The translations under genes were made by a program, and so were the position numbers. Under the pieces are notes generated by a model. That model searched no databases. It was not told where the DNA came from and saw only the letters and a list, made by a program, of their open reading frames with translations. Shown piece after piece: positions 2,277 to 27,884 of a stretch of DNA of 28,002 nt (the stretch's first letter is position 1; every line of letters starts with the position of its first letter). The DNA comes from a virus, in IMG/VR virus record IMGVR_UViG_3300020416_000588, positions 1 to 28,002 of that record. One strand, given 5' to 3'.

Positions 2277-3059
2277 ATGACAAAAATGAGAGATAAGACC
2301 GTCTTACCTCAAATGATTGGTAGAAATAGAGACGGCAAAGAAATCAACGGCGAAGTATTATATCCTTTTGGTCCACCTGTTTATAGAACAGAAATAGACG
2401 ATAACATTTTACAGATGTTAATTGATGAGGGTAAACGAATACGAAAAGAAAAACCTAAAGACAACGACCATAGAAATAATCTAGCAGGTGTTATGGGTTC
2501 TACTGAACAAAGCACTTCTGTTAAATATGATAAAGGCGAAGTTCGTAATCGTGCTGATATGGCGATTGTTCAGAAGGTATTTGAGTTCTTTGATATACTT
2601 TCAGGTAACTATGGTTCAGGTTGGCCTAATATCAATAGAACATTATCGCCTGATAATAAACCTAATGTGTTAAGATTAGACCAGTTATGGATTAACTTTC
2701 AACACAAATACGATTTCAATCCACCACACGACCATAGTGGTGTTTTTAGTTTTGTAATGTTTGGTGATATAGACGAAAAGATATTTACTGAAAATGTACC
2801 ACCTACTAATGCAAAGGTATCAGGTAAATTATGTTTTCAATATGGCGAAAAGATTTCAAATTTACAAGCAAATAACTTTACGGTAGAACCTTATAGAGGT
2901 TTGATGTATGTTTTTCCTGCAACACTTCAACACTATGTAGCACCTTTCTATACTGACTATGAAAGAATAAGTATTAGTGGTAACTATGTTCTACAACAAC
3001 CAGGTCCAGGTATACAACCTATGACTAAAGAACAAGAGGCAAAACTAAATTTAGTGTAA
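2277..3059 (+). CDS. 2OG-Fe(II) oxygenase superfamily protein
   Basis: The 260-residue protein has an oxygenase-like core in its second half. Residues 149-156, PPHDHSGV, give His151-x-His153 at the start of a beta strand, and FPATLQHYVAPF with ERISISGNY gives His219 and Arg230. This is the expected order of metal ligands and 2-oxoglutarate-binding Arg in the double-stranded beta-helix of phage 2OG-Fe(II) oxygenases. The first ligand motif is HxH rather than the classic HxD, a variation I believe occurs in related marine phage proteins. The start could be 2277 or the second Met at 2286. Substrate is unknown; protein or nucleotide hydroxylation are both possible. It sits between the iscA-like and NFU genes. 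Confidence 0.75.
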   Translation: MTKMRDKTVLPQMIGRNRDGKEINGEVLYPFGPPVYRTEIDDNILQMLIDEGKRIRKEKPKDNDHRNNLAGVMGSTEQSTSVKYDKGEVRNRADMAIVQKVFEFFDILSGNYGSGWPNINRTLSPDNKPNVLRLDQLWINFQHKYDFNPPHDHSGVFSFVMFGDIDEKIFTENVPPTNAKVSGKLCFQYGEKISNLQANNFTVEPYRGLMYVFPATLQHYVAPFYTDYERISISGNYVLQQPGPGIQPMTKEQEAKLNLV

Positions 3060-4519: not shown

Positions 4520-4729
4520 ATGGAAGGTGTATTTAAGATAAAAGTAGGACGAAGTATCTACACTTACACTAACTTTGATGAAATACCACAAGAGATAGGT
4601 GCTGTTATTTCATTTAATCCTAAATATCCCGAAGAACCTCATACAGAAGAAGAACATAAGTTAATAGAAACCTTTAACGACAAATTACAGGAGTTAATGA
4701 AAAGGGAATGCCGGCGGTTACGAGAATAG
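4520..4729 (+). CDS. Small acidic protein upstream of PAAR, unknown
   Basis: This 69-residue protein begins MEGVFKIKVGRSIYTYTNFD, continues with a predicted beta-rich half and ends in an acidic helix (EEEHKLIETFNDKLQELMKRE). The ATG follows the previous TAA immediately with AAGG upstream. It overlaps the PAAR gene by 22 nt. I do not recognise the family. The placement before the PAAR tip and gp25 suggests a late-expressed baseplate-associated or chaperone-like protein. Confidence 0.65.
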   Translation: MEGVFKIKVGRSIYTYTNFDEIPQEIGAVISFNPKYPEEPHTEEEHKLIETFNDKLQELMKRECRRLRE

Positions 4730-4995
4730 GCGATAAAGATGTTACCCATTGTAGCACACCTGCAAGAGCAGTAGGTTCGCCAGATGTATTTTGCAATGGT
4801 ATTGCTATCAGTAGACAAGGTGATAACAATACTACACATCTATTGCCAGGTCTACCTTGTCCTGCACACGCAGCTCCGATTGCTCAAGGTAGTACAACGG
4901 TCTTTATAAATGGTAAAGGTTGTGGTCGTGTTGGTGACGCAATATCGGGTTGTACTAGTGTTGCTGAAGGTTCGCCTAATGTCTTTGCTGGTTAG
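4708..4995 (+). CDS. 5.4: PAAR-motif spike tip protein (gp5.4-like)
   Basis: The 95-residue product starts MPAVTRIGDKDVTHC and carries the PAAR signature: GSPDVFCNGIAISRQGD, then HLLPGLPCPAHAAPIAQGS, TTVFINGKGCGRVGD and a GSPNVFAG end. PAAR proteins fold into a short cone that caps the gp5/VgrG beta-helix needle and binds a metal ion through His/Cys residues. Length is close to T4 gp5.4. Several His and Cys (for example in the THC and PCPAHAAP segments) are in place to act as ligands. It is separated from the gp5 gene here by about 4.5 kb of accessory genes, an unusual gap. Confidence 0.93.
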   Translation: MPAVTRIGDKDVTHCSTPARAVGSPDVFCNGIAISRQGDNNTTHLLPGLPCPAHAAPIAQGSTTVFINGKGCGRVGDAISGCTSVAEGSPNVFAG

Positions 4996-20677: not shown

Positions 20678-21160
20678 ATGGCAGATGAACAAACGCAATT
20701 ATGGGTTTCCCGATTGAAAGAGGAAATTCAATCCCACGATAGATATAACGCAAGACAGATTTTCTACATTGACGAAGAAGGTAGAGATAGAGAGGTCAAA
20801 GAACATATGACCTATGGTGAATGGTTGAGAGAGTATGAGAGATTTAAAACCATTAAGGTGGAAGGTTTAGAAGAAACTAAATGGATAACGGAGTGTGTTG
20901 ACGAAGTTGTACATAATATTACTGGAAAGAAAAGAAGTAATATACATTTATTTGTAAATCAAAAACCAGGTGTTAGTTTTAAATCACATAAAGACGACCT
21001 AGATGTTTACTTGTATGTTGTTAAAGGCAAGAAGAAAGTAAATGTTGAAGGAGAGAATAAGATAGCATACGCTGATGAAGGTGTGTATATCAAGGAAGGT
21101 CAATATCATTATGTAGATAACGAAGCAGATACTTGGGGGTTAAGTATCGGAGTTGTCTAA
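20678..21160 (+). CDS. JmjC/cupin-like Fe(II) oxygenase
   Basis: The 160-residue protein has an N-terminal helical part and a C-terminal cupin. GVSFKSHKDDLDVYLYVVKG followed by KKKV gives His104-x-Asp106 and the DVYLYVVKGKKKV strand. DEGVYIKEGQYHYVDNEADT followed by WGLSIGV gives the second-side His144. This order closely resembles the cupin-4/JmjC ribosomal-oxygenase fold (YcfD type: HxD, DVFL-GRRRW, PPRWxHxG, SIGF). Such enzymes hydroxylate proteins with 2-oxoglutarate and Fe(II). It is much shorter than YcfD (373 residues). Its stop shares one base with the start of the radical SAM gene, so the two are likely made together. A plain sugar-type cupin is the alternative. Confidence 0.68.
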   Translation: MADEQTQLWVSRLKEEIQSHDRYNARQIFYIDEEGRDREVKEHMTYGEWLREYERFKTIKVEGLEETKWITECVDEVVHNITGKKRSNIHLFVNQKPGVSFKSHKDDLDVYLYVVKGKKKVNVEGENKIAYADEGVYIKEGQYHYVDNEADTWGLSIGVV

Positions 21161-22194
21161 TGAATTGGATGTTTTATCTTAAAACAACCGAAACCTGCAA
21201 TCTAAATTGTAAACATTGTTTCACTTCAGGTAAGAACGGTCCTAAAGTATATTGGGATACAAATAAAATCATAAATTGGTTTCACAATTTCAGAAAATTC
21301 AATTATCATAAACACGATATCGCACATTTAGAGTTTCACGGCGGCGAACCTTTTTTAGTTCCTGTATCTGAAATGCAATATGTGTACGATAGAACAAAAG
21401 GTCTATGGGAACATCAATCTTATGGGGTTACTTCTAATCTCGTATTCAAATTAAAACAAGAACATATAGATTTTATGAAAGGTCCACTAGGAAATAGATG
21501 TGGAACTAGTTGGGATCCTAATATTCGTTTCGCAAATGAGAAACAATCTAACTTATGGCGTAAAAATGTTGAAACTTTATTGTCTGAAGGCATAACAATC
21601 AAACTTTTTATATCAGTAACCAAAGATACGGTCAATATTGAACCCATACAACTACTACAATGGGTAAAAGACTTGGGTGTTTCTGAAATGGCACTAGAAA
21701 GATTGACTGGAAACGGCAATGCTAACTTACATCCTGAAATTTTCCCAACAAATATTGAACAAGACAAGTGGTTTTTGAAAATGCACGAACAATCAGAGCA
21801 ATATAATGCAAGAGATTGGTTTGAAAATGAATTTTTAGAAACTATTTACTCAAAATTTAAGTCAGGTAACACAAAACAAGGTACTTTCTGCCGTGATTGC
21901 GAACAAAAACTATTTACACTCAACGCAACAGGCACAATAGGCGGTTGTCCTAACGCAAGTCCCGAGTTTAACTTCGGTTCTCTGGATGACCCTATGATAG
22001 ACCTTATAAATAATCCAAAGAGATTGAATAATATTGCTTGCGAAGTAGCAAGAAACCCAAAATGTTGGGAATGTGATGTATTTAAATATTGTGGTGGCGA
22101 TTGTCACCAACTAGGATGGCAAGGCGATGTATGTGGTGCCCCTAAATCTCTAATGAAACAACTGGCACAAAAGAAAAGTGAGGCGATATGGTAA
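21160..22194 (+). CDS. Radical SAM/SPASM domain protein (peptide-modifying type)
   Basis: The 344-residue product has TETCNLNCKHCF with Cys13, Cys17 and Cys20 (CxxxCxxC), which binds the SAM-cleaving [4Fe-4S] cluster, then HGGEP at about 60-65. The C-terminal SPASM part has Cys302, 305, 311, 315 and 325 (C-x2-C-x5-C-x3-C-x9-C) and upstream cysteines in FCRDC and GGCPN, enough for two auxiliary clusters. SPASM enzymes mature ribosomal peptides and proteins (thioether or C-C bonds) or activate enzymes. The start is placed at the ATG overlapping the cupin stop (GGAG upstream), not at a TTG farther up. The 7-nt overlap with the next gene, which ends in CHxS repeats, makes that protein the likely substrate. 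Confidence 0.9.
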   Translation: MNWMFYLKTTETCNLNCKHCFTSGKNGPKVYWDTNKIINWFHNFRKFNYHKHDIAHLEFHGGEPFLVPVSEMQYVYDRTKGLWEHQSYGVTSNLVFKLKQEHIDFMKGPLGNRCGTSWDPNIRFANEKQSNLWRKNVETLLSEGITIKLFISVTKDTVNIEPIQLLQWVKDLGVSEMALERLTGNGNANLHPEIFPTNIEQDKWFLKMHEQSEQYNARDWFENEFLETIYSKFKSGNTKQGTFCRDCEQKLFTLNATGTIGGCPNASPEFNFGSLDDPMIDLINNPKRLNNIACEVARNPKCWECDVFKYCGGDCHQLGWQGDVCGAPKSLMKQLAQKKSEAIW

Positions 22195-22961
22195 ATTTAA
22201 CGAATCCGATTACTGCTCAAAACATTGTAGATAGATTTAAAGAAGTGGTAACAGATGTGGCTGATAAAGATATTGTTTGGGGTACAGATAACTTACCTGG
22301 ACATAGTGCTTTTTCTGCGTCTGACTTCGGAGGAGTAGTTGATGGTATGCAATTGAACCTAGTAAATGCAACAGGTAATTTTAGTGTTAACGAAACGGTT
22401 ACAGGTTCTATTTCAGGAACCGTAGGTACCGTTGTTAGTTATTCAAACAATGTATTAAAAGTAAGAAATGTAGTACCAGGTTCAGGACAAACTAACTTTG
22501 TTCAAAACGATATATTAACAGGTAGTAATTCAGGTGCGACTGGTTCAGTATCTACAATGACAGAAGTATCAGCGGTTACTATTTCTATTAATGGTAATAA
22601 TCTAGGTAGTTCAGCACAATTAATTCAAGCGAATACAATTTATAGTGTTTTAAAAGCTGAAATGAACAACTATACTAATATTAAGAGTACTAATGCGTTT
22701 GTATCAATGACAGGTGCAGGTACTCAATATAATCAAACAGAAATCGCACACTTAACAACTAGTCAAAGAGTAACCTTAAACCCATCACAACCTAGTAATT
22801 TACAAGCAGGTCAAGTAATTGACGATAGTAATTTAGAAAACTTTTTAAGTTCTCTTGCAAGTGCTTATGGTGTTGAAAGAGGAAATACTTACACACTATC
22901 AAAAACAATTTGTCATAGTTCGTGCCACGGTTCGTGCCACGGATCCAGAGGAAGAAGATAA
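22188..22961 (+). CDS. Virion-like protein with C-terminal CHxS-repeat tail, candidate radical SAM substrate
   Basis: The 257-residue protein starts MVNLTNPITAQNIVDRF. It contains two beta repeats of the kind found in the gp7-like, gp8 and DUF4815-like proteins (NETVTGSISGTVGTV at about 67 and NDILTGSNSGATGSV at about 107). After a Ser/Thr/Asn-rich middle it ends CHSSCHGSCHGSRGRR (242-257). The only cysteines are Cys242, 246 and 250, one per four-residue repeat, each followed by His and, two residues later, Ser. GTGAGG precedes the ATG, which overlaps the SPASM gene. It is probably a virion component whose tail is modified. The tail could instead be an unmodified metal-binding tag. Confidence 0.72.
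   Translation: MVNLTNPITAQNIVDRFKEVVTDVADKDIVWGTDNLPGHSAFSASDFGGVVDGMQLNLVNATGNFSVNETVTGSISGTVGTVVSYSNNVLKVRNVVPGSGQTNFVQNDILTGSNSGATGSVSTMTEVSAVTISINGNNLGSSAQLIQANTIYSVLKAEMNNYTNIKSTNAFVSMTGAGTQYNQTEIAHLTTSQRVTLNPSQPSNLQAGQVIDDSNLENFLSSLASAYGVERGNTYTLSKTICHSSCHGSCHGSRGRR
22920..22943 (+). repeat. Tandem 12-nt repeat coding for S-C-H-G
   Basis: TCGTGCCACGGT followed by TCGTGCCACGGA, 11 of 12 bases identical. The codons TCG, TGC and CAC are rare choices here (neighbouring genes mostly use TCA/TCT, TGT and CAT), so the stretch is GC-rich against its surroundings. The immediately preceding copy (TGT CAT AGT) uses ordinary codons. Confidence 0.85.
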
Positions 22962-23653
22962 TGATTGAAACTATTGTACCTATTGAATTGAAAGATTTAA
23001 AAAAATACTTTGAAGATAAAACACAAAGTTATATGATTGATTACGAAAAGAGTACATTAAAAGGTGCTCAGTTCTTAACATATTTAAGTAATTTAGATAT
23101 ACCTTGCGACCTATCTAATTATGATGATGAATTACTAAAAGAATATTTTGAGAGTTCTATGTTAGTAAACATACCATTACTAGAAAAGGCTGCTATGATT
23201 GTTCTATTTGAACATAAAGGTCTAGTAAAAGAAATTAAGAACGCAAAATTTATATCAGAAAATTTAGAGACTATTGATAAGTGGGCAAGTAAATTAGAAA
23301 GTTTACCACTATACAATATGTCTATCGTAGGAGAAGGTGCATTTAAAGAATATGTTGACCTATATCCTAAAGACGAAACAGAAGATACTAAAGGTATCAA
23401 CTTTGTTAGTCTATTAAAACACAAAGATTTTTATTTCTACTATAATAAACCAGAAGAAAAAATTGTTAAAAACTATACTAAATACTTTAAAGAATATATG
23501 TTTAAAGGCAAATGTCTATTAGACTTTTGGGGTGTTAAAGAAAACCCTATGTTTCTAATGACTTGGGCGATTGCCGAAGGTAAATTTGATAGTAAGAAAT
23601 ACAAAGAAGCAAGAACAAAAGATTTAGAGGTACTAAATGCTACACCTGTTTAA
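22961..23653 (+). CDS. Unknown protein downstream of the CHxS gene
   Basis: The 230-residue protein starts MIETIVPIELKDLKKYFEDK at the ATG overlapping the previous TAA. The longer frame from a GTG at 22922 would read through the CHxS-coding region in another frame and is not supported. It is mostly helical, Lys/Glu-rich, with no signal peptide or metal motif and scattered aromatic residues (KHKDFYFYYNKPEEK). No family recognised. Tight spacing within the modification block suggests a partner, such as a substrate-recognition or assembly protein, but this is inference only. Confidence 0.7.
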   Translation: MIETIVPIELKDLKKYFEDKTQSYMIDYEKSTLKGAQFLTYLSNLDIPCDLSNYDDELLKEYFESSMLVNIPLLEKAAMIVLFEHKGLVKEIKNAKFISENLETIDKWASKLESLPLYNMSIVGEGAFKEYVDLYPKDETEDTKGINFVSLLKHKDFYFYYNKPEEKIVKNYTKYFKEYMFKGKCLLDFWGVKENPMFLMTWAIAEGKFDSKKYKEARTKDLEVLNATPV

Positions 23654-24749
23654 TAAAGTTTATATGACTTTTGACGATAGTATTGATTGTCATACTAACA
23701 GATATGTTATATCTGCTGATAAAGGCAATGCAATGCACCAAGAGCTACAAACAACTTATCGTGGTACATTAATTAATCATACTCATAGCGTTAACGAAAT
23801 GAAAACGAAGTTTAATGGTATGATAGGTTTCTTTAATGATGTAAGATTAAAAAGTAATTCTCTAGGTAAGATTATTATATATTGTGATAGTCAGGCATTT
23901 TTAGAGTTGGTAACTATATGGTTAAAGACTATGTTGCCTTTCGCTGACGAAGACGCAATACAAAAATATGTAGATATCTATTTACACCACGAAAAGATTA
24001 TTGCAAATACACAATTGCAACCTACACATACTTTAGATTTGACACAATTAAATTCTGGTCTAGGAGATGTTAAAGGTTACTTTAGAGTACAAGGTGCTTT
24101 AGATTTAGATACTATCAAAGAGTGGGATTTAAATTTATCAATAGAATTATTATTAGGCGAATACTTTGCAGGTGCCGATACACACGAAGATAAATTATTA
24201 GACACATATTTAAAATTCTTAAAAAGATTTTACAAAGAAGTATTTACAGACGCTAGAGAGGGTGCAGCTCTCAATCTGTTAAATACTAATCAACAAGAAG
24301 CATTAGGTTATACTGCTGATGATGTCAACTTAAATGCTGATAATGTCTTTGAAGGCATTACACCTTTAGCACCTTTCGCTGATAGTGAAGTATTTGTAGA
24401 GAAACCTACTGCAAACAATGGTGCTGTCAACATAATGAATATTGATAATTTGTCAAGTGAAAAACAAACTGCACTAAAAGAATTAGTCAAAGACCTATAC
24501 GACTTTCAAAATTCACCTAGTCCTGATTACTTTATGAACCATTTAGACAAGGCAGTTAAGTCAACTCTTTCTAAATCAGATTTTGACACAATCATAACCG
24601 AGACGGTGAATAGTCCATCTAGTCTATCGTACATACCGAGATTTGATATAGGTAATATTAACTATTCTTTTTTACAATATCTATTCTCATTAAAAAAATC
24701 AGACGATACAGACACTTTAGGAAAGTATAGACTATTCGCAAACTCGTAG
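23637..24749 (+). CDS. Unknown 370-residue protein in the modification block
   Basis: The ATG at 23637 has AGAGGT well placed upstream and overlaps the previous gene by 17 nt; a second ATG at 23664 is possible. The protein begins MLHLFNKVYMTFDDSIDCHT. An N-terminal alpha/beta part contains GKIIIYCDSQAFLELVTIWL, a strand-then-helix pattern, and the rest is helical and acidic, ending GKYRLFANS. No catalytic motif is recognised. The protein just upstream is also unrecognised, and the pair lies between two SPASM genes. Whether they belong to the modification pathway or are virion parts cannot be told from the sequence. Confidence 0.7.
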   Translation: MLHLFNKVYMTFDDSIDCHTNRYVISADKGNAMHQELQTTYRGTLINHTHSVNEMKTKFNGMIGFFNDVRLKSNSLGKIIIYCDSQAFLELVTIWLKTMLPFADEDAIQKYVDIYLHHEKIIANTQLQPTHTLDLTQLNSGLGDVKGYFRVQGALDLDTIKEWDLNLSIELLLGEYFAGADTHEDKLLDTYLKFLKRFYKEVFTDAREGAALNLLNTNQQEALGYTADDVNLNADNVFEGITPLAPFADSEVFVEKPTANNGAVNIMNIDNLSSEKQTALKELVKDLYDFQNSPSPDYFMNHLDKAVKSTLSKSDFDTIITETVNSPSSLSYIPRFDIGNINYSFLQYLFSLKKSDDTDTLGKYRLFANS

Positions 24750-24757
24750 GAGTTTAA

Positions 24758-25810
24758 ATGCGAGAGTTTTTATTAGACCCAAAAAGAGACCCAGAGCAAG
24801 AGTACACTATTCATTTATTTGAATTTTGTAATTTGCGTTGTGCTTTCTGTTGGCAAAACCACGAAGACACTATCGGTACTGAAAATGTATTAGATAAACT
24901 TCCGTCAGTAGAGAAGTTTATATCAAAAGAGTTAATGCAAAAAGTTACCTTTAATGTTATGGGTGGCGAAGTCTTTGCACCTGCAATCTACACAAAGAAA
25001 TTAAATGAAGGTTATAAACTTTTTGTAAAAGGTATACAAAAGATATGTGACCATTACAATAAGAAATGTGTAATTAATTGGGTATCTAATTTAGTAACCA
25101 CACCTCAAGGTAATGAACAGATACTAGATTTAATAACTTGGTCTAGGCAAGAAGGTATTGAAACTAGATTAACAACTAGTTATGACCCACGAGGTAGATT
25201 TAATAAAAAAGATTTTGAGATATTTAAATCAAATGTAGAATATTGGGGTGATGAAGTAACCTGTTTTTCTTGTCTACTTACAAAACCTAATATCACATAT
25301 TATTTAGAACAAGGCGATGAATACTTTGACTATCTCTATAAGAGTGGTAAGTATATCTACTTTGATTATTATATGCCAGATGAACACGCAAAATACAATA
25401 TGCCTAGCGATGAATTACTATTAAAATTTTTCAAACATTGTATAGACAAATATCCTAATGTACATCCTGTTAGAGATTGGATTTTCAATAAGAAAAACTT
25501 TGCAAGTTGTAGAGTATCAAAACTTATATTAGCAGATGGTACTTTATGTCAATGTGGTAATCTAGTACAAGATGAAAAATCATTAAGTCAATATAAGTCG
25601 CCAATAAAAAGAAAAGATAATAGTAGAATAGAAAATAGTTTTTTAGAAAAATATAATTGTGCTAGTTGTGAATTTTTAGATAGATGTACACTAGGTTGTT
25701 TTATGAACCACGATTACAGATATAAGGAGGAACTCAATGAGTGTGTATACAAACTTACGCACAGATATATTGAAGATGTACGAGTACAACGAAATCTTGT
25801 TGCAACCTAA
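24758..25810 (+). CDS. Radical SAM/SPASM domain protein (second copy)
   Basis: This 350-residue enzyme has FEFCNLRCAFCW with Cys24, Cys28 and Cys31 (CxxxCxxC) and a MGGE motif at about 68-71. The C-terminal SPASM domain shows Cys301, 304, 310, 314 and 329 (C-x2-C-x5-C-x3-C-x14-C) plus earlier cysteines in ASCRVSKL and LCQCGN for the other auxiliary cluster. It differs widely in sequence from the enzyme at 21160, so it is not a recent duplicate and probably has its own substrate or reaction. AGGAG overlaps the stop of the preceding gene. The next gene starts 74 nt before this one ends. Confidence 0.9.
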   Translation: MREFLLDPKRDPEQEYTIHLFEFCNLRCAFCWQNHEDTIGTENVLDKLPSVEKFISKELMQKVTFNVMGGEVFAPAIYTKKLNEGYKLFVKGIQKICDHYNKKCVINWVSNLVTTPQGNEQILDLITWSRQEGIETRLTTSYDPRGRFNKKDFEIFKSNVEYWGDEVTCFSCLLTKPNITYYLEQGDEYFDYLYKSGKYIYFDYYMPDEHAKYNMPSDELLLKFFKHCIDKYPNVHPVRDWIFNKKNFASCRVSKLILADGTLCQCGNLVQDEKSLSQYKSPIKRKDNSRIENSFLEKYNCASCEFLDRCTLGCFMNHDYRYKEELNECVYKLTHRYIEDVRVQRNLVAT

Positions 25811-26357
25811 TAATCTCAATTTACCAGAGAATATAGAAGTACAACTAGATAGATTTCCTGTACAGAAACCTTATATGCCTAGATTGTGTGAAAGACAAGC
25901 ACACTTTCTTTTGTGGTTAGGTACGAAAGAAGAAGACATAGAATTATATAATGTTGCACAACAAACAATAGGCGAGAAACAATGGGTACAACCTAAAACG
26001 CCTAATACATTTATTAAAGGTGTAGGTATGTTTCATATTTACAAAGACCATATCATATGTGGGTCTATGAAGTATGCAGGATATATGAAAAGAAAAGACG
26101 CAACATATAGAAGAAGATTATTAAGAACAATGTGGTGTGAAACAATAAACTTATTTAAAGATAAAGATATTATATGTCCTAGTGGAACATATTTTGATTA
26201 TGTACATCTAACAATGAACCAGATGTCTGCACAAAAAGAACCATATCACTATCAAATTATGACACAATTTGGTTTTAAGAAAGATGATAGTGGTGATTAC
26301 TGGATTAGAAACAAAGAAAGTCAAACAGGATTAAACTGGATAGGATTATGGACCTAA
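25737..26357 (+). CDS. Unknown protein between two SPASM genes (possibly acetyltransferase-like)
   Basis: A strong AAGGAGG lies seven bases before the ATG at 25737, which fixes the start inside the preceding gene. The 206-residue product runs MSVYTNLRTDILKMYEYNEI to NWIGLWT. Its middle, GMFHIYKDHIICGSMKYAGY, and the helix MKRKDATYRRRLLRTMWCET followed by INLF resemble a GNAT acetyltransferase layout, and YHYQIMTQFGFKKDDSGDYW would fit the last GNAT strands, but no firm acetyl-CoA loop can be seen. It overlaps the third SPASM gene by 10 nt, so production of all three is probably linked. Confidence 0.65.
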   Translation: MSVYTNLRTDILKMYEYNEILLQPNNLNLPENIEVQLDRFPVQKPYMPRLCERQAHFLLWLGTKEEDIELYNVAQQTIGEKQWVQPKTPNTFIKGVGMFHIYKDHIICGSMKYAGYMKRKDATYRRRLLRTMWCETINLFKDKDIICPSGTYFDYVHLTMNQMSAQKEPYHYQIMTQFGFKKDDSGDYWIRNKESQTGLNWIGLWT

Positions 26358-27454
26358 TAATAAAACCTACTGAATTGTGTAATTTCAAATGTACTTTTTG
26401 TTCAAGTACACAATTGACTAATGAAAAGAAAAACTGGTTAAAACACGACCAGATATTTCGTTTTTTAGAAAGGTTTCCTGAAACAAAAACTATTATCGTA
26501 AATGGTGGTGACCCATTGATGATGGCACCTGATTACTACTGGAAGATTATTGAATGGTTAGATAATAAAGGTTACGATACTTCACTTGCACTTACAACAA
26601 ACTTATGGCCTTTCTATAAGAAACCAGGTCGTTGGGTTGACTTATTTAATAATGATAGAGTAGGTATCACAACTTCTTTTCAATATGGTGGTGGTAGATT
26701 GAAAGGTGACTTTACAGAATTTACAGAAGAAGACTTTTGGAAGTGTTCAGACGCAATGTTAGAATATTGTGGTTATAGACCTGACTTTATATCAGTTATT
26801 ACAGAAGAAAATGTACACAACGCAATCAAAAATGTTAGACTTGCAAAACAGATGTCAAACAATAATGAACCTGAAGGCACTTTACATAACTTCTGGCGTT
26901 ATGAGAAAACAGGTGTTGAGTGTAAACTAAACTATGCAATGGCAAGTGGTGAACAGAAAAATCCATTTTTATTATCAGACATATATAAGATATATGTTGA
27001 TATCTGGCGTATGGGACTTTCACCTTGGGAGTTCAATACAAAACAAATGATGACAACAATTAAGACTGAACATACGAGTTGTCCGTTAAGTAGAAAGTGT
27101 GATGAGGGTATAAGATGTTTACAACCAGATGGCGACTATTATAGTTGTGGTGCTTTCGGTGATGATAAAGATAAAGAGATAGATTTTGAAAGAGAAATGC
27201 AAGGTGAGTTTTTTACACCTTTGCAAGATGATTTAAAATTAACAACTATGAAAAAGAGTTGTTATGGTTGTCCTATGTTTAGTATTTGTAATGGGTGTAG
27301 AAAAACAATAAAAGATTACAAAGAAAAAGGAGTTGTAGAGGCACATTGTCAAAAGATGAAAAGAAATGGTGAAGATATATTAAATGCAAATGGTTTGCAT
27401 TATATCAAAATGACGCCTTATGAAAATGAGATAAAAAATGTTAATCAAGCGTAA
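26348..27454 (+). CDS. Radical SAM/SPASM domain protein (third copy)
   Basis: The 368-residue enzyme starts MDLIIKPTELCNFKCTFC with Cys11, Cys15 and Cys18 (CxxxCxxC), and NGGDP near 52-56 in place of GGE. C-terminally, CPLSRKCDEGIRC and SCGAFG carry auxiliary-cluster cysteines, and a SPASM motif follows with Cys305, 308, 314, 317 and 334 (C-x2-C-x5-C-x2-C-x16-C). The spacing differs by one residue from the other two enzymes. The TTNL and FQYGGGR segments fit the radical SAM barrel. It overlaps the gene before by 10 nt and the 2OG oxygenase after by 17 nt. Substrate unknown; no short precursor peptide gene is seen next to it. Confidence 0.9.
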   Translation: MDLIIKPTELCNFKCTFCSSTQLTNEKKNWLKHDQIFRFLERFPETKTIIVNGGDPLMMAPDYYWKIIEWLDNKGYDTSLALTTNLWPFYKKPGRWVDLFNNDRVGITTSFQYGGGRLKGDFTEFTEEDFWKCSDAMLEYCGYRPDFISVITEENVHNAIKNVRLAKQMSNNNEPEGTLHNFWRYEKTGVECKLNYAMASGEQKNPFLLSDIYKIYVDIWRMGLSPWEFNTKQMMTTIKTEHTSCPLSRKCDEGIRCLQPDGDYYSCGAFGDDKDKEIDFEREMQGEFFTPLQDDLKLTTMKKSCYGCPMFSICNGCRKTIKDYKEKGVVEAHCQKMKRNGEDILNANGLHYIKMTPYENEIKNVNQA

Positions 27455-27884
27455 TGTCTTAACTATGACAGAAGGTAATACTTTATTAAACGCAATTAAT
27501 AAGTTAGACCTGCCGTTATATGAAAAGAATATACACACGAAGTTAGATGATAATTTTGAATGGACAGATACAATATGTCGTTTAAATTATCCTGATTTAG
27601 GTCCTTTGATTGTCAGATATATTATCTCTACAAACACTAAAGACGAGAATAAGAATATAATAGGTTATCATACAGATAGCGATAAGAATAATGAGATTAC
27701 TGCAATACTATATTTAAAAGGTGATAGTACAAAAGGTGGAGAATTACAGATAGAAGGTAAGAAGAAACATAGATTTGAGAAGAACGCATTGTTTATAATG
27801 CCATCACATTTAAGGCATAGAGCAAATCCTTATTATGGTGATGAGACTAGACTTGCAATTAAGTGGAGGTTTGTTAGAAGATGA
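27438..27884 (+). CDS. 2OG-Fe(II) oxygenase (prolyl hydroxylase-like fold)
   Basis: The 148-residue protein contains the minimal double-stranded beta-helix. IGYHTDSD gives His78-x-Asp80, EITAILYLKG and GGELQIEG are the next strands, and FIMPSHLRHRANPYYGDETR followed by LAIKW gives the distal His127 (or His124) and the 2-oxoglutarate-binding Arg138. All expected ligands are present, so an active Fe(II) dioxygenase is likely. Such enzymes hydroxylate protein side chains or nucleic acid. The start at 27438 overlaps the SPASM gene by 17 nt and has a weak ribosome-binding site; Met10 is a possible later start. Its position after three SPASM genes points to protein modification. Confidence 0.85.
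   Translation: MLIKRNVLTMTEGNTLLNAINKLDLPLYEKNIHTKLDDNFEWTDTICRLNYPDLGPLIVRYIISTNTKDENKNIIGYHTDSDKNNEITAILYLKGDSTKGGELQIEGKKKHRFEKNALFIMPSHLRHRANPYYGDETRLAIKWRFVRR

Follow-up and report, generated by a model that had tools for sequence, protein, structure and literature searches.

A conserved radical SAM/SPASM gene module that probably matures the Cys-His repeat tail of a virion-type phage protein

Organisation of the locus

Downstream of a fibre-like gene, the 28,002-nucleotide stretch of viral DNA analysed here (the window) contains a compact run of genes, all on one strand (Table 1), in which a radical SAM/SPASM enzyme designated SPASM1 immediately precedes a virion-type protein with a distinctive C-terminal tail. 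The initial annotation had placed a radical SAM/SPASM gene at this position and reported that it overlapped the next gene by 7 nt, and both points were confirmed: the TAA of the SPASM1 gene occupies 22192–22194, and the ATG of the tailed-protein gene lies at 22188. The phrog_20767-family gene in turn begins within the tailed-protein stop codon (TAATG, 22959–22963), and the shared TAATG plus the 7-nt overlap indicate that these three genes are tightly coupled. Besides SPASM1, the module includes a cupin, a 2OG-Fe oxygenase, two unknown proteins and additional radical SAM genes, making at least three of the latter in all; the initial annotation had overlooked these further members.

Table 1. Features of the module and its upstream flank (window coordinates)
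Feature	Position	Strand	Remarks
Fibre-like protein, 432 aa	19368..20666	+	Upstream of the SPASM1 module
Cupin-fold protein	20678..21160	+	Directly 5' of the SPASM1 gene; PF07883 30.3 bits, cut-off 27.2
Radical SAM/SPASM enzyme SPASM1, 344 aa	21160..22194	+	phrog_1802, E 5.6e-63; TIGR04085 above cut-off
CHxS-tailed virion-type protein, 257 aa, probable substrate	22188..22961	+	Overlaps the SPASM1 end by 7 nt
Tail C-H-S-S-C-H-G-S-C-H-G-S-R-G-R-R	22911..22958	+	Stop codon immediately 3'
phrog_20767-family protein, constant partner of the tail	22961..23653	+	phrog_20767, E 1.9e-56
370-aa protein, frequent module member	23637..24749	+	Within 4 kb downstream of the tail in 65/73 class I loci
Second radical SAM protein, rSAM2	24758..25810	+	phrog_1802, E 3.2e-43; within 4 kb downstream in 72/73 class I loci
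Protein of up to 206 aa, start may be further in	25737..26357	+	ORF; in some module copies
Third radical SAM protein, rSAM3	26348..27454	+	PF04055 31 bits, above cut-off
2OG-Fe(II) oxygenase	27438..27884	+	PF13640 30 bits, cut-off 27; in many module copies

The order fibre, cupin, SPASM1, tailed protein, phrog_20767, 370-aa protein, rSAM2, (206-aa protein), and then rSAM3 plus the 2OG-Fe oxygenase, recurs among related loci; in 71 of 73 class I loci, the phrog_20767 gene is found no more than 4 kb 3' of the tail. The cupin gene occupies this place in the jumbo phages as well as in the majority of class I loci, and its product may serve as an Fe(II) enzyme or an accessory; the 2OG-Fe(II) oxygenase could be a late-step enzyme. 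The C-terminal domain of the fibre-like protein likewise recurs upstream of the module, both in the two tail classes and in phage Phosso, and one relative (in L062) gave a sub-threshold Peptidase_G2 match. The phrog_20767 protein yielded a well-folded model for which fold searches returned no PDB look-alike, a result that does not show a new fold, and searches of PDB sequences with alignments of the tailed and phrog_20767 proteins returned no credible match.

The immediate neighbours of the module are baseplate wedge and fibre genes, and the window gp6 is 65% identical to that of Pelagibacter phage Mosig. The host-recognition cluster of pelagimyophages has been reported to differ through added radical SAM cassettes (PMC7029224). 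Elsewhere in the window, a PAAR-motif spike tip protein (4708–4995) adjoins the baseplate genes, a further 2OG-Fe(II) oxygenase lies outside the module (2277–3059; phrog_81, E 8.8e-32), and two Fe-S cluster assembly genes, an A-type carrier (PF01521, 1654–1977) and a NifU-like protein (PF01106, 3059–3331), may supply clusters to the three radical SAM genes.

Properties of SPASM1 and its nearest known relatives

Pfam matches to SPASM1 were weak; its match to phrog_1802 was clear, and its SPASM domain passed the NCBIfam cut-off (TIGR04085, 28.9 bits vs 27). Alignment with 24 relatives, extending down to ~38–40% identity, confirmed as invariant the three cysteines of the CX3CX2C radical SAM motif (Cys13, 17, 20) and seven SPASM cysteines (Cys247, 263, 302, 305, 311, 315, 325) corresponding to two auxiliary clusters. 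The best profile relatives within NCBIfam were peptide and protein maturases (PapB, DynA, anSME) and the related structures were those of CteB and anSME, while all NCBIfam equivalogs, the named maturase families included, fell far below their cut-offs. Judged on these sequence features, SPASM1 is a true radical SAM/SPASM protein outside every named family, and a probable tail-modifying enzyme. A viperin or defence role was considered and rejected, PADLOC having given just weak pVip matches to the common radical SAM core.

One of the closest known parallels is the ranthipeptide system of PapB and PapA, in which a single SPASM enzyme likewise adjoins a substrate whose Cys repeats are evenly spaced; SPASM1 had its top NCBIfam match with the profile of PapB, at 39.2 bits, yet the family cut-off is 340. 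PapB forms six thioethers, in CX3D motifs (PMC9413430). Whereas PapA has Cys-X3-Asp repeats, however, the present tail has CHxS repeats without acidic residues, and its carrier is not a short peptide but a large, folded protein of virion type, accompanied by several extra radical SAM enzymes.

The initial annotation had also related the tail to those of the His-Xaa-Ser (Hxs) systems, which similarly combine several radical SAM proteins with a substrate containing H-x-S units. That relation proved to be one of letters only, arising because the CHxS unit contains H-x-S: the HxsB and HxsC matches (29.7 bits vs 370 and 30.5 vs 267.9) were far below cut-off, the tailed protein matched no NCBIfam profile, HxsA included, at E 0.1, and the constant Cys, the RGRR end and the partner genes all differ from Hxs. 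Membership of the Hxs systems was accordingly rejected.

The enzyme anSME turns one Cys or Ser of sulfatases into formylglycine. Structures of anSME could be aligned with almost the entire SPASM1 profile (4k37, E 1.5e-8), and the alignment to CteB (5wgg) covers the N-terminal part; no sulfatase was found among the module genes. With the defining enzyme features present, the predicted mode of action is radical SAM/SPASM protein maturation, which is of a known kind.

The tail and its carrier proteins

The tailed protein terminates in ICHSSCHGSCHGSRGRR, and its only cysteines (242, 246 and 250) all lie within this tail, as had been noted from the outset. The corresponding consensus, CHxxCHxxCHxxRxRR-stop, recurs in every intact relative. 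It is not a chance occurrence; from composition alone, the probability of its nine fixed residues is ~3e-14 per 16-mer. When, as the converse test, DNA of viral and genome collections was scanned for the pattern CH..CH..CH..R.RR, with neither the stop nor Ser/Asn imposed, the stop nonetheless followed RR immediately in 244 of 246 C-terminal ORF matches, the remaining two being chance matches in unrelated bacterial ORFs. Similarly, Ser or Asn occupied positions −13, −9 and −5 in 158, 162 and 157, respectively, of 165 unique tailed proteins. Variations on this arrangement included a tail of four units, CHxN in form, in place of the usual three (L124, 8105–8878; CHSNCHSNCHSNCHTNRSRR), and two differing tailed proteins in tandem after a single SPASM1 gene in five class I loci (L066, L067, L075, L143, L163).

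By way of contrast with the constancy of the tail, the bodies that carry it (120–360 aa) fall into ~12 families unconnected by BLAST, as would be expected if the enzymes read the tail and not the body. The model of the window protein (mean pLDDT 87.6) comprised a well-folded body and a flexible or disordered tail. Its shared core amounts to ~190 aa, residues ~52–129 being an insert confined to close relatives of the window protein, and it was for this insert alone that fold searches found look-alikes. The greatest resemblance, suggestive only, was to T4-type baseplate protein (VIA-align Z 7.5 over 71 residues with 9f4a, and 6.7 over 68 with 5hx2). Viral models containing the insert domain included many cyanophage structural proteins and, at rank 30, an Atu_ph07 protein of 296 aa, the length of the tailed protein of that phage. 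The 'fibre-like beta repeats' originally ascribed to the protein thus correspond to a domain at ~52–129, but one that is baseplate-like, restricted to close relatives and not part of the shared core.

Evidence bearing on the location of the tailed protein in virions came from phage Atu_ph07, whose virion proteins, as identified by ESI-MS/MS, cluster in CDS 170–215 (PMC6102473). The tailed protein of this phage is gp170, the first of that cluster, with the numbering in agreement with the sequence record, and its C-terminal tryptic peptide would be NMWYQSANVTASIGVDFCHSSCHASCHNSR. From the cluster boundary given in this single paper, we infer that gp170 was itself detected in Atu_ph07 virions. 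The original description of the window protein as virion-like is hence supported indirectly, by the start of the Atu_ph07 cluster at gp170 and by the baseplate-like insert.

Co-occurrence of the tail with radical SAM genes

A forward set of 84 loci, comprising 80 IMG/VR SPASM1 loci and four of seven cultured jumbo-phage records, was assembled without the tail being used in the choice. Where the DNA 3' of the enzyme gene was intact, as in 79 of these loci, a gene immediately or shortly after it ended in the tail consensus without exception; the other five of the 84 contigs stop less than 250 bases past the enzyme gene. A wider profile-based search for SPASM1 found the tail in 75 of 79 cases, the remaining four contigs being cut off, and the tail lay beside all 80 phrog_20767 relatives. 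Most of the 176 tail genes scored begin within 50 bases of the SPASM1 end, often overlapping it, with 17 situated at ~0.8–1.2 kb. The apparent tail-less exceptions (L008, L040, L042, L053, L079, L586, G067, G069) were contigs ending at or before the tail gene.

Of 28 records in which the tail lacks a nearby SPASM gene, 27 contain radical SAM genes at another position, and 18 of 24 such records contain SPASM1 itself; in two larger records without SPASM1 (G007, G016), the contig end falls inside or beside the module. Records selected by rSAM3 alone had the tail in 11 of 16 cases, and of the other five, two were cut off at the tail gene and three were short contigs. As a neutral control, 23 records were selected by the baseplate gene gp6: tail and SPASM1 occurred together in five and were both missing from 17, no record had a tail but no SPASM1, and one was truncated (Fisher p = 1.8e-4).

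The co-occurrence of CHxS tails with this SPASM subfamily that the initial annotation had anticipated was thereby borne out, whether approached from SPASM1 (79/79 intact neighbourhoods) or from the phrog_20767 gene (80/80), and the opposing prospect that it had raised, of CHxS tails widespread in the absence of radical SAM genes, produced no counter-example. That the tail and the SPASM1 subfamily go together is strongly supported. As the loci are related, many being kindred contigs, the counts are not of independent events and overstate independence; the breadth of the association, which spans pelagiphage-like, jumbo and class II phages and the Bdellovibrionota, argues more than do the counts.

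Distribution beyond the pelagiphage-like loci

Tail carriers were found among pelagiphage-like, jumbo and other phages and on Bdellovibrionota chromosomes; neighbouring genes encode two to nine radical SAM proteins, a cupin and, in many cases, a 2OG-Fe oxygenase. The jumbo phages examined had the same gene order, with a single tail per genome in the four that were searched whole. Cultured carriers comprise Atu_ph07, Phosso, SURPRISE13 and pPa_SNUABM_DT01, together with FLC6 and FLC8 by homology. A tblastn search of cultured phages with the tail and the 127-aa class II protein gave no match, probably as a result of the low-complexity filter and the short query length.

In class II loci, a fibre gene is followed by two tandem proteins of 124–140 aa, with no SPASM1 in the first flank examined and SPASM1 far off. 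Class II clusters contain up to ~9 radical-SAM-like genes with CX3CX2C, Pfam support for some of these being marginal. Four such blocks (L159, L161, L178, L507) have radical-SAM-like genes at a density unusual for a virus, several of them too divergent for Pfam.

On Bdellovibrionota chromosomes, the tail was accompanied by SPASM1, phrog_20767, rSAM2 and rSAM3 in a changed order, with no evident prophage. In three of the four loci examined, a Peptidase_S74 fibre-chaperone protein was encoded near the module (L392, 15756–16943; L393, 6055–7092; L395, 108–1121), that of L392 bearing a prepilin methylation motif. A conserved protein of 184–209 aa follows these genes, the L392 and L393 copies being 49% identical; a single hhalign comparison of this partner with the phage fibre C-terminal domain gave E 0.016, which is suggestive only. 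Bdellovibrio recognises prey through S74 fibres, and many of its mosaic adhesive trimers (MATs), which are fibre adhesins, have S74 domains (PMC10769870). The S74 proteins near the Bdellovibrionota module are a point of likeness to the MATs, and support, by analogy, a role for the module at a cell-contact fibre; the difference is that PMC10769870 has no mention of radical SAM enzymes.

A proposed maturation pathway and its alternatives

Taken together, these data make it probable, at roughly four chances in five, that the locus is a maturation module, encoding a conserved pathway of several enzymes that has the tail of a baseplate- or fibre-associated virion protein as its substrate. The window protein would be one such component of the virion; its flexible tail consists of three Cys-His-Xaa-Ser units, after which Arg-Gly-Arg-Arg ends the chain. 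SPASM1 would oxidise this tail repeatedly, most likely at the cysteines, by means of a radical SAM cluster together with two auxiliary Fe-S clusters; the tail would probably be positioned by the phrog_20767-family protein and by the RGRR at its very end. To judge from the constant neighbourhood, further steps would be contributed by the other radical SAM enzymes, the cupin and the 2OG-Fe oxygenase. The single likeliest product, at somewhat short of even odds, would be a Cys thioether to a neighbouring residue, a suggestion based on analogy with PapB, in which Cys is linked in CX3D motifs, and on Cys being the invariant reactive residue; formylglycine formation, histidine or serine chemistry, epimerisation and the building of a metal site are possible alternatives. 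The product would then remain on the particle as a conserved functional tip or a cross-linked end, serving assembly or host contact.

The combination of a SPASM enzyme with neighbouring oxidising enzymes is also typical of RiPP pathways, and the modelled disorder of the tail, together with its constancy on differing bodies, would also suit a true RiPP in which the modified tail is cleaved off as a small peptide or cofactor and the body is a mere carrier. Such a reading is improbable: no protease or exporter was constant among the module profiles compared, which cover the annotated part of the neighbours, the bodies are of 120–360 aa with the one modelled well folded, and they are encoded in the baseplate/fibre region, the Atu_ph07 virion cluster beginning at the tailed gene. 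The regular Cys-His pairs would in addition suit an unmodified metal-binding end, with Cys/His ligands to Fe, Zn or Cu and the radical SAM genes acting elsewhere; HxH iron sites have been described in phage fibres (PMC11705849), and the window contains Fe-S assembly genes. This explanation is nonetheless as unlikely as that of cleavage, since it leaves unaccounted for the exceptionless bond between SPASM gene and tail, the fixed Ser/Asn and C-terminal RGRR, and the fact that two to nine radical SAM genes accompany the tail from one unrelated body to another. A modified tail might still bind metal.

A further explanation, in which the association reflects no more than shared ancestry of a conserved gene block within one phage group, draws on the highly conserved gene order and the many closely related loci. 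It has been largely refuted, and is very improbable, given that the block recurs in unrelated jumbo phages and, in changed order, on Bdellovibrionota chromosomes, that a second arrangement exists with tandem 127-aa proteins and a distant SPASM1, and that the bodies are dissimilar by BLAST.

Significance

Radical SAM genes of phages are commonly recorded as accessory or host-metabolism genes, and the open-licence papers searched list them only as metabolic or accessory; those of the Pseudomonas aeruginosa phage DT01, for example, are tied to DNA repair and metabolism (PMC8541153). None of the open-licence papers searched described a pathway in which several radical SAM enzymes are devoted to a virion protein of a phage, and such a pathway appears to be undescribed in that literature. 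A large family of phage radical SAM genes is now linked to one virion-type protein tail, and thereby to a structural role that is testable, and testable now, because cultured carriers exist.

A more tentative, and on balance doubtful, extension of the maturation proposal is that phages, and predators of the Bdellovibrio group, use a dedicated set of as many as nine radical SAM enzymes, together with iron oxygenases, to construct a conserved tip of complex chemistry on a protein associated with the fibre or baseplate, and that this tip performs host- or prey-contact chemistry beyond the reach of unmodified protein, such as the holding of metal or bonding to the cell surface. If the maturation pathway is as proposed, tailed phages would bear particle chemistry that is built post-translationally, by a pathway that is common among ocean phages and also present in relatives of predatory bacteria.
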